A stretch of DNA of 64,000 nt from Maribacter hydrothermalis (GTDB taxonomy: Bacteria > Bacteroidota > Bacteroidia > Flavobacteriales > Flavobacteriaceae). The notes under the pieces are model-generated. The model was not told the origin of the DNA and did not search any database. It saw nothing but the letters and a program-made list of their open reading frames with translations. This document shows positions 29,324-44,583 of this stretch, piece by piece. Made by a program: the position numbers and the translations under genes. The number at the start of each line of letters is the position of its first letter. Position 1 is the first letter of the stretch. Location of the stretch: contig NZ_CP018760.1 of the NCBI RefSeq assembly GCF_001913155.1, forward strand, positions 2,728,001 through 2,792,000. The letters are read 5' to 3'.

Positions 29324-29710
29324 TTTTAAATTATTTGAATTAGCTAGCGACAAACTTCATAATAAACTGTTAATAATGCAAGAGAATTTTAATAAAACTT
29401 TAAGAAGATGTTATAAATCGCGAAGTTACAGATTAAACACTGTCTATATTTATTAGTAAATAATATAACAGCCTTTGTTTTATTAAATTCATAATTTTTT
29501 AAAAAATATGGTAAAATCTTATATAAAATTTAAAGTTGTATTGTTTGGAGATAAACTATAAGGTTGCTTTATGGTACTTGTTTTTGAATGCGCGATTTCG
29601 ACTGTTTTTAAAAAAAAATAAAAATAAATCGATTAGGATTTGAATTACTGTGATTTATTACTACATTTGCCGACCCTTAAAGTAGGGGTAATTTTTATAT
29701 ATTATTTAGT
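29324..29710. other. 387-base intergenic region between susC and rpsL
   Basis: Very AT-rich gap between divergent genes. On the plus side it contains a good promoter for rpsL (29639-29669) and, just after it, a small inverted repeat ACCCTT / AGGGGT (29673-29689, one G-T pair) followed by a T-run, right at the expected start of the transcript. For the susC side no full promoter match was found (GAAGTTTG on the minus strand at 29351-29358 is one base off the -7 consensus). No ORF or RNA gene is visible. Confidence 0.6.
29639..29669 (+). promoter_or_regulatory. Bacteroidota-type promoter of the str operon
   Basis: TTTG at 29639-29642 and TACATTTG at 29662-29669 match the -33 (TTTG) and -7 (TAnnTTTG) consensus exactly with a 19-base spacer. 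The -7 box ends 41 bases before the rpsL ATG, leaving a short leader. Confidence 0.75.
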
Positions 29711-32733: not shown

Positions 32734-33039
32734 ATGAGTCAAAAAATTAGAATAAAACTAAAATCTTACGATCATAATTTAGTAGATAAATCTGCTGAGA
32801 AGATTGTAAAGACGGTAAAGACTACTGGTGCTGTTGTAACAGGACCAATTCCTTTACCAACACATAAGAAAATTTTCACGGTTTTGCGTTCACCTCACGT
32901 GAATAAAAAATCAAGAGAGCAGTTTCAATTAAGTTCTTACAAGAGATTGTTGGATATTTATAGCTCTTCATCTAAAACTATTGATGCACTTATGAAGTTA
33001 GAACTTCCAAGTGGGGTAGAAGTAGAGATTAAAGTATAA
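32734..33039 (+). CDS. rpsJ: 30S ribosomal protein S10 (uS10), 101 aa
   Basis: Head protein of the 30S subunit, also the NusE partner of NusB in antitermination. [18 protein letters not shown] at the start and the loop [23 protein letters not shown] are characteristic. It belongs transcriptionally with fusA (9-base gap), while 144 bases with a terminator-like hairpin separate it from rplC, so the gene that usually opens the S10 operon here ends the str unit. Confidence 0.99.
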
Positions 33040-33071
33040 TTTATTATCTATCTCAATTTGGGGTAGAGGAC

Positions 33072-33116
33072 ATGTCCGGAGCTGCGTGCGAAGGAAAAAT
33101 GGAAAAGATAATTTAG
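33072..33116 (+). other. Possible 14-codon leader ORF overlapping the hairpin before rplC
   Basis: ATG at 33072 opens a frame MSGAACEGKMEKII ending at TAG 33114-33116. GAGG sits 3 bases before the ATG, a Shine-Dalgarno-like sequence unusual here. The TAG is the first three bases of the left arm of the terminator-like hairpin, so a ribosome stopping there would cover the stem. The ORF is short enough to be chance. Confidence 0.3.
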
Positions 33117-33144
33117 GGTTAAATTATTTTGACCCTATTTTTTT
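33114..33144 (+). terminator. Intrinsic terminator or attenuator between rpsJ and rplC
   Basis: Stem TAGGGTTAAA (33114-33123) with TTTGACCCTA (33128-33137), 10 pairs including one T-G, loop of 4, followed by seven T (33138-33144). This is a textbook intrinsic terminator in the direction of the ribosomal genes, 39 bases before the rplC ATG. Since no strong promoter is seen between it and rplC, some read-through or regulated antitermination is likely. Confidence 0.75.
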
Positions 33145-33183
33145 GAAAAGTATTTAAATAAGTAATAATTAATATAAATAAGT

Positions 33184-33807
33184 ATGTCTGGGTTAATAGG
33201 AAAGAAAATAGGCATGACTAGTATATTTGACGAAAATGGAAAAAATATTCCATGTACCGTTATTGAAGCTGGACCATGTGTAGTTACCCAAGTCAGAACC
33301 GAAGGGGTTGACGGGTATAGTGCTCTTCAGCTTGGTTTCGATGACAAGGCAGAAAGTCGTGCTAATAAGGCTGAATTGGGCCATTTTAAAAAAGCAGGAA
33401 CTTCTCCTAAGAAAAAAGTCGTTGAATTCCAAGATTTTGAAGGTGATTTTAAATTAGGAGACACCATTGGTGTTGATGTTTTTGTTGAAGGCGAATTCGT
33501 AGATGTTATTGGTACATCTAAAGGAAAAGGTTTTCAGGGTGTTGTAAAACGTCACGGTTTTGGTGGGGTTGGTCAAGCAACACACGGTCAGCATAACAGA
33601 CTTAGGGCTCCAGGTTCTATTGGTGCTGCTTCATATCCTGCAAGAGTATTTAAAGGTATGAAAATGGCTGGTAGAATGGGTACGGATCGTGTAACGGTTC
33701 AGAACCTTAGAGTTTTAAAAGTAGTTCCAGAAAAGAATCTTTTAGTAGTAAAAGGTTGTGTTCCGGGCCATAAGAATGCTTATGTAACTATACAAAGGTG
33801 GATGTAA
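33184..33807 (+). CDS. rplC: 50S ribosomal protein L3 (uL3), 207 aa
   Basis: Early-assembly 23S rRNA-binding protein near the peptidyl-transferase centre. [15 protein letters not shown] at the start and the loop [18 protein letters not shown], whose Gln is the usual methylation site, are present. It is the first gene of the long S10-spc-alpha run and lies behind a terminator-like hairpin (33114-33144) that may control the whole run. It overlaps rplD by one base (TAATG). Confidence 0.99.
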
Positions 33808-34436
33808 TGAAAATAGCAGTTTTAGATATTAACGGAAAAGACACAGGTAGAAAGGCAAACCTTTCTGATGATGTTTTCGCTATAGAGCCTAATGAGCACG
33901 CAGTTTACTTAGATGTTAAGCAATATTTAGCTCATCAAAGACAAGGTACGCACAAGGCAAAAGAAAGAGCAGAGATTGCAGGTAGTACAAGAAAGATTAA
34001 AAAACAAAAAGGTACTGGTACGGCCAGAGCTGGTAGTATTAAATCTCCTGTATTTAGAGGTGGTGGTAGAATTTTTGGACCAAGACCTAGAGATTATGCT
34101 CAAAAACTAAATAAAAATTTAAAGCGTTTGGCAAGAAAATCGGCATTGACTTTAAAGTCTAAAGAAAATGCAATTTTGGTAGTTGAAGACTTTGATTTTG
34201 ATACTCCTAAGACTAAAGATTTCGTACAAGTTTTAAAGGCTTTTGGTCTTGAAAACAAAAAATCTTTAATAGTGTTGGGTGATTCAAATAAAGGTGTATA
34301 TTTGTCTTCGCGTAATTTTAAAGGTTCTGAAGTTATAACTAACTCAGAATTAAGTACTTACAAGATTCTTAATGCAAATAGTGTTGTGTTGTTAGAAGGC
34401 TCTTTGGAAGGAATTGAATCGAATTTAAATAAATAA
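33807..34436 (+). CDS. rplD: 50S ribosomal protein L4 (uL4), 209 aa
   Basis: 23S rRNA-binding protein with a globular part and the extended exit-tunnel loop (KKQKGTGTARAGSIKSPVFRG). The ATG at 33807 overlaps the rplC stop and gives [15 protein letters not shown]; a GTG 9 bases earlier is inside rplC and is less likely. In E. coli L4 represses its own operon through a leader RNA; here the only candidate leader is the gap before rplC. Confidence 0.98.
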   Translation: MKIAVLDINGKDTGRKANLSDDVFAIEPNEHAVYLDVKQYLAHQRQGTHKAKERAEIAGSTRKIKKQKGTGTARAGSIKSPVFRGGGRIFGPRPRDYAQKLNKNLKRLARKSALTLKSKENAILVVEDFDFDTPKTKDFVQVLKAFGLENKKSLIVLGDSNKGVYLSSRNFKGSEVITNSELSTYKILNANSVVLLEGSLEGIESNLNK

Positions 34437-44529: not shown

Positions 44530-44583
44530 GAAAGTGTAGTTACGATTATCGAAGGATAAGCCTTAATTCATAATCTCACTTTC
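44530..44583 (+). ncRNA. Candidate S4 leader: three-tier nested hairpin before rpsD
   Basis: GAAAGTG (44530-44536) pairs with CACTTTC (44577-44583), inside it GATTAT (44544-44549) with ATAATC (44570-44575), inside that AAGG (44552-44555) with CCTT (44561-44564) around a 5-base loop; all 17 pairs are Watson-Crick. Internal loops are asymmetric (7/1 and 2/5). The element ends 13 bases before the rpsD ATG. S4 represses its own operon by binding leader RNA in other bacteria, so a similar role here is plausible but unproven. Confidence 0.6.

Follow-up and report, generated by a model that had tools for sequence, protein, structure and literature searches.

How are the ribosomal protein genes downstream of rpsJ transcribed in Maribacter hydrothermalis when a terminator points into them? 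In the window, the whole stretch of 64,000 nucleotides analysed here, rpsJ (S10; 32734..33039, + strand; NCBIfam TIGR01049 / NF001861) is the last gene ahead of a gap of 144 nt (33040-33183), and rplC (L3; 33184..33807, + strand; TIGR03625) is the first gene past it. A sequence-only reading of the locus had placed in this gap an intrinsic terminator hairpin (33114..33137, + strand; a stem of 10 pairs around a loop of 4) and directly behind it a run of seven T (33138..33144, + strand), with 39 nt between the end of the T-run and the rplC ATG at 33184, and all of these features were found as described. The same reading attributed the control of the 28 genes from rplC to rplQ to the translation of a short ORF. 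The gap was found to hold a larger feature than a terminator and an ORF, namely a structured attenuator RNA made of four pieces. A conserved core, a hairpin preceding it (P1) and an antiterminator are added here to the feature, as all three had been missed. The conserved RNA switch in the gap probably sets the transcription of the 28 downstream genes.

The conserved core and the P1 hairpin

The core (33070..33102, + strand) is the putative ligand site, and was recovered in alignments A2, A3 and A4 and with the covariance models R1 and R2. It is 33 nt long and nearly invariant, with the consensus ACAUGUCC-N-R-AGC-loop-GC-R-A-R-GGAAAAAYGG, and it contains hairpin P2 (33075-33096, + strand). Eleven of the 33 positions were invariant in A4 (69 distinct sequences), and the core pattern was present in one copy in the window genome. 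The core stem usually has R.A and A.R mismatches in the middle. Both mismatches were replaced by Watson-Crick pairs in 4/69 cores (CCTTAAC...GTTAAGG type), and a different stem was present in 4/69 (CCCACCG type). For the core helix alone, the covariation score and the number of paired cells were above those of all 500 shuffles, and the number of pairs with a two-sided change was matched by 5/500. The values were modest for pair types (matched by 35/500 shuffles) and for two-sided cells (16 versus 12.7, with 121/500 shuffles as high). The support for the core helix is thus based more on invariance than on covariation.

P1 (33047..33067, + strand) is a hairpin of variable sequence just 5' of the core, identified by folding. 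It ended 0-5 nt 5' of the core in 84 of 89 loci, with a mean folding z-score of -2.99 relative to mononucleotide shuffles (63/89 loci below -2), compared to -0.24 (11/89 below -2) for control stretches of equal length after the T-run. The P1 sequences were unrelated among loci (e.g. L117, L131, L008 and L022), and by eye they often resembled dispersed palindromic repeats. Judging by these sequences, any stable hairpin might serve as P1, as if any would do. The core starts 9-11 nt past the rpsJ stop in ten of the 99 loci in A3 (L021, L024, L031-L033, L045, L125, L132, L143 and L144), which leaves no room for P1. Because of this short distance, a ribosome that completes rpsJ would reach into the core, and an interplay of the core with rpsJ translation is possible in those ten loci.

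Terminator, antiterminator and short ORF

Taken alone, the terminator match is weak evidence; 15 terminator-like matches were counted in 17.1 kb on both strands, versus 7.7 +/- 3.1 in shuffles. The z-score for folding of the whole gap was -2.06, with 9/200 shuffles as good. What places the terminator beyond chance is its conservation in relatives, as its helix was paired in 97.4% of cells among 94 distinct sequences. Covariation was assessed in two alignments. A2 is a plain MAFFT alignment of 57 sequences, obtained from the 63 of A1 by removing six nearly identical rows from the same genus (A1 itself omits L084, which is the window again). A3 contains 99 sequences, 94 of them distinct, and omits the near duplicates L088 and L100 and the window copies L084 and L147; it was aligned by model and so leans towards the modelled structure. 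RNAalifold predicted 15 pairs in A2, and two-sided changes were kept in 10 of them. For P2 and the terminator in A3, two-sided changes were present in 14/18 pairs and 86.1% of cells were paired. The two-sided cells numbered 84 versus 26.7 in shuffles and the covariation score was 0.262 versus 0.151, and for all five measures none of 500 shuffles was as high. Sliding one side by a single column reduced the covariation score to 0.06-0.07. All shuffle and permutation controls keep the relatedness of the sequences in.

The antiterminator hairpin (33105..33130, + strand) has 11 pairs, with arms at 33105-33115 and 33120-33130, and overlaps the terminator. In a swap test on 57 sequences, the pairing energy was -6.25 kcal/mol for own arms versus -3.70 kcal/mol for swapped arms, with 0/2000 permutations as good. 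The own partner was the single best for only 2/57 sequences (median rank 8), because the arms are A/U-rich. For the outer arms alone (94 sequences), the values were -1.8 for own and -0.6 for swapped arms, with 0/5000 permutations as good. These outer arms are unpaired in the terminator state and still pass the swap test, so they covary apart from the terminator. The arm types varied among loci, including AAAAUAC/GUAUUUU, AAAACAAA/UUUGUUU and AAAGAAAA/UUUUCUUU. The antiterminator is weak (-4.7 versus -11.4 kcal/mol for the terminator). When growing transcripts were folded, by minimum energy at nine chosen lengths and not as kinetics, the antiterminator was the minimum-energy fold at 3' ends 33130-33134 and the terminator from 33136 on. 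In these models the antiterminator and the terminator share bases and are mutually exclusive, and both are conserved in relatives. Such exclusive hairpins, kept in relatives, are the mark of an attenuator with an antiterminator.

The 14-codon ORF (33072..33116 with its TAG, + strand) is present, and its TAG forms the first three bases of the left arm of the terminator. It had been proposed that a ribosome ending there would cover this arm and favour read-through, and in line with such translation-coupled attenuation the window does contain the ORF, with its ATG and with a TAG that overlaps the arm. This model is at odds with the comparison of relatives. The ORF that starts at the core ATG had 2 codons in 46 of 99 core-bearing sequences and 4 to 49 codons in the others, the length of 14 codons being unique to the window, and no conserved short ORF overlapping the switch was found among them. 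Comparison with relatives, which had been suggested as a check, thus yielded covariation and no conservation of the ORF. The ATG is conserved because it lies inside the RNA motif AUGUC (core columns 3-7), which was invariant in 69/69 distinct cores. The GAGG noted ahead of the ATG does exist (33066-33069), but only 2 nt separate it from the ATG, and part of it belongs to another hairpin. According to excerpts of PMC10931766, PMC6847099 and PMC9976891, flavobacteria initiate without Shine-Dalgarno pairing, rpsU being an exception, so the GAGG does not count as evidence of translation initiation. The ORF is regarded as accidental, short-ORF control as a conserved mechanism was ruled out by the ORF lengths across the 99 sequences, and translation-coupled attenuation is considered highly improbable.

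Distribution in the Flavobacteriaceae

The named rplC loci nearest to that of the window belong to the Flavobacteriaceae (Maribacter, 93%). Gaps were collected at 80 named rplC loci as well as in the window genome and in its relatives. By pattern search, the core was found in 63 distinct loci, comprising 45 of the 80 named loci, the window and 17 of 18 same-genus relatives. At E <= 0.01, covariance model R1 had a match in 323 of the 397 family genomes, including 290/330 good family genomes and 201/237 genera. Matches were strong in 312 genomes (E 8.6e-10 or better) and weak in eleven (2.3e-4 to 7.8e-3). All weak matches but G400 were re-examined, ten in number; rplC was found in eight of them, the element in none of these eight, and in the other two no rplC was found. 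When these ten genomes were combined with 20 unmatched genomes, rplC was found in 23 and the gap was visible in 22. The core was present in 0/22 of these gaps, which ranged from 2 to 402 nt, nor was a degenerate leader seen in any of the 22. Similarly, R1 had no match among 40 loci without the core pattern. All 14 named loci titled Flavobacterium lacked the core. The element is cleanly missing from some genera and is thus dispensable in them.

Two groups of core-less gaps were of separate interest. In four loci titled Flavobacterium (L029, L030, L035 and L046) and in L188 (genus g139), the rpsJ-rplC gap contained a different conserved block, which follows a promoter-like element and holds CUCCCUGUUU...AAAUUGAAGGGAAUUUUAG; this block may be a replacement regulator. 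In the core-less L184, L187, L189, L191 and L192, a simple hairpin was recognised by eye in the gap.

The core lay between rpsJ and rplC in 39/39 loci with checked flanks (the 30 best-scoring family matches and nine matches from an order-level search, the window included). The element has two properties of ribosomal protein leaders (r-leaders), a consistent location upstream of ribosomal protein genes, as observed in these mostly best-scoring matches, and an RNA structure supported by covariation, which is weaker for the core helix alone. At the order level, R1 gave 22 matches, 11 of them outside the family, and at the class level 28 matches, 25 of them outside. Neither rpsJ nor rplC was found in any of 26 out-of-family R1 loci (L152-L177), inspected with flanks of about 1.5 kb or as much as the contig offered. 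Six out-of-family alignments looked terminator-like, with little of the core. The core-only model R2 matched 4/295 class-level genomes, all four in the Flavobacteriaceae, and 18/246 order-level genomes, 17 of them in this family; both sets also hold Flavobacteriaceae genomes with no R2 match. The sole out-of-family R2 match (L160/L222, E 0.018) lies inside a gene that by eye resembles uracil phosphoribosyltransferase, and is apparently a chance match.

Operon context, proposed mechanism and known leaders

Ten proteins of the gene run were confirmed by NCBIfam (rpsL, rpsG, fusA (EF-G), rpsJ, rplC, rplD, secY, rpsD, rpoA and rplQ), and the remaining gene names were assigned by eye from translations. 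TAnnTTTG is the Bacteroidetes -7 type promoter element. In a regular-expression scan, a Bacteroidetes-type promoter match, TTTG-N19-TACATTTG, was located ahead of rpsL (29639..29669, + strand), and this was the only two-box match from 28 kb in the window to rplC. Further two-box matches were located within downstream genes, at 34275, 35225 and 41107. Because the only two-box match before rplC precedes rpsL, the element appears, on this sequence scan, to lie inside a gene run rpsL-rpsG-fusA-rpsJ / rplC-...-rplQ. A small hairpin, ACCCTTAAAGTAGGGGT, and a T-rich stretch were seen directly after the rpsL promoter match, in a short rpsL leader (29639-29689); this hairpin is possibly another control element.

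The absence of a full promoter match downstream of the terminator, as stated in the sequence-only reading, was borne out. On the + strand, no sigma-70-like match was found to begin within 33144-33184, and all 99 sequences, that of the window among them, lacked TAnnTTTG in the stretch from the T-run to rplC. The attenuation site that it placed ahead of the 28 genes likewise proved to be conserved in relatives, with no promoter match before rplC. In 8 of 98 loci (L004, L134, L041, L048, L052, L067, L072 and L151), a promoter-like TAnnTTTG was present in the stretch that leads from rpsJ to the core, in five of them also with a TTG box; a ninth locus, L092, was omitted, as its TAnnTTTG overlaps the first bases past the rpsJ stop. 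By eye, seven of the eight have a terminator after rpsJ. In these loci, where the promoter-like element separates rpsJ from the core, the attenuator would be a 5' leader of rplC in the strict sense, which suggests that it serves the downstream genes.

These observations bear on a simpler explanation, in which the hairpin just terminates the str part (rpsL-rpsJ) at its 3' end, a fraction of the polymerases always reads through and no ligand is involved. That a terminator follows rpsJ is consistent with this, as are the simple hairpins of the five core-less genomes mentioned above, but a plain terminator leaves unexplained the nearly invariant 33-nt core, the separately covarying outer arms of the antiterminator and the promoter-like element found between rpsJ and the core. 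We consider it unlikely. Our preferred reading is that the gap encodes a cis-acting ribosomal protein leader and that this leader, within a single long operon, attenuates the S10-spc-alpha genes; given the sequence comparisons and the folding models, we judge this to be likely.

In the proposed mechanism, RNA polymerase would arrive from the predicted rpsL promoter via rpsL-rpsG-fusA-rpsJ or, in 8/98 loci, would start at the promoter-like element past rpsJ. P1 and the core hairpin would be transcribed first, followed by the antiterminator, which is able to fold before the terminator. If the antiterminator holds, the polymerase would clear the U-run and transcribe the 28 genes from rplC to rplQ. 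A ligand bound to the core would hinder the left arm of the antiterminator, which starts 2 nt past the core; the more stable terminator would then form and transcription would stop. Termination in living cells, the order of events, the direction of the response and the nature of the ligand are inferred. Termination caused by the ligand is the usual sign for ribosomal protein feedback, and the most likely ligand is a ribosomal protein encoded in the operon. Our guess, by analogy, is L4 (rplD; 33807..34436, + strand; TIGR03953), named because L4 controls the S10 operon of E. coli (excerpts of PMC10931766) and is the proposed ligand of an Archaeoglobi rplC leader (excerpts of PMC7247131).

Mimicry of rRNA was assessed by scanning the 23S rRNA of the same genome with the core, as a mismatch pattern and as a weight matrix, and its 16S rRNA as a weight matrix. 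The best 23S place, at own position 986 (CCAUGUCCGAGAGGGAAA), was not beyond shuffles and was rejected; in this sequence scan, the best two-block match was equalled or beaten by 21/40 shuffles and the right block alone by 65/200. This place presumably pairs differently from the core. The best 16S place, with 2/40 (two blocks) and 8/200 (right block) shuffles as good, is suggestive at most and is not claimed. This sequence scan of 23S rRNA lends L4 no support; r-leaders lacking rRNA mimicry are not unusual, according to parts of PMC7247131 and PMC2864571.

The core might instead recruit a complex of general use in elongation or antitermination (NusA, NusG/LoaP or NusB-S10 type) that assists the polymerase across the 13-kb operon. 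S10 is NusE and is encoded just upstream of the core, invariant unpaired flanks (AAAAAYGG) adjoin the hairpin, most carrier genomes have a single match, and a very long series of genes starts behind the core. However, no boxA-like element was recognised by eye, a single genomic use would be odd for a general factor, and the pair of antiterminator and terminator suggests a local switch, so that recruitment seems improbable to us. We hold the same doubt about its specific form, in which the core is a loading site for an antitermination complex, perhaps with S10/NusE, licensing the whole S10-spc-alpha run; if true, this would couple free S10 to the making of some 25 other ribosomal proteins.

The element, read as a ribosomal protein leader, was compared with known systems. 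The search with Rfam leader models that had been suggested gave no support, as Rfam 15 had no covariance-model match at the gathering score in the gap, where manA-II scored 15.5 bits (cut-off 100). The element resembles the r-leader class (for example the 20 leaders of Eckert and Weinberg 2020, PMC7247131) in being a structured, covarying, lineage-restricted RNA at a single position directly before ribosomal protein genes, but in most loci it lies inside a gene run after rpsJ and not at a 5' end, and Table 1 of that paper lists none before rplC in Bacteroidetes. The E. coli S10 leader, as described in parts of PMC10931766, also controls S10 genes, and its action likewise includes stopping transcription early, at an intrinsic terminator within the leader itself. 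It is a long leader that precedes rpsJ, has an additional effect on translation and is regarded as 23S-like, whereas the element described here is located after rpsJ, is about 100 nt long, has an explicit antiterminator and showed no sequence mimicry in our scans. The B. subtilis rplJL leader (L10(L12)4) shares an antiterminator/terminator exchange under ribosomal proteins (PMC10931766, in part) but differs in operon, lineage and structure. The S4-Flavobacteria leader (RF03141, 52.5 bits) was the only Rfam match in the window, where it precedes rpsD at 44544-44575. It belongs to the gene run described here, which therefore carries at least two leaders; the model of this leader had no match in the rpsJ-rplC gap, and the leader precedes other genes.

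The GUCCY-hairpin was compared by its name and table row in PMC2864571. Its name includes GUCC, which the core also holds, and Bacteroidetes are listed for it, but Proteobacteria are listed too, with '?' for RNA and for cis-regulation. The core position after GUCC was mixed (T in 33, G in 20 and C in 14 of 69), whereas the name allows only Y. Going by name and table row, the GUCCY-hairpin is a possible earlier sighting of the core. The available portions of PMC11109978, PMC2965389, PMC2864571 and PMC9723704 contain no mention of the element, and in part of the last, 64 structured 5' regions are reported from the transcriptome of F. psychrophilum. No earlier description was recognised in the open-access literature, most subscription papers and all supplements being beyond the scope of the search. 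The best reading is that the element is an undescribed ribosomal protein leader.

The S10-spc-alpha genes encode much of the ribosome, together with SecY and RpoA. The L4 leader of E. coli does not reach even Pseudomonas (PMC10931766, in part), and no account was found in the open-access literature of how these genes are tuned in Bacteroidota. A family-wide attenuator with an almost invariant 33-nt core offers a directly testable putative binding site. On the model proposed here it would be a case of ribosomal protein control inside, and not ahead of, a merged operon, and it points to a way in which a single transcript could have its str and S10 parts set at different levels.
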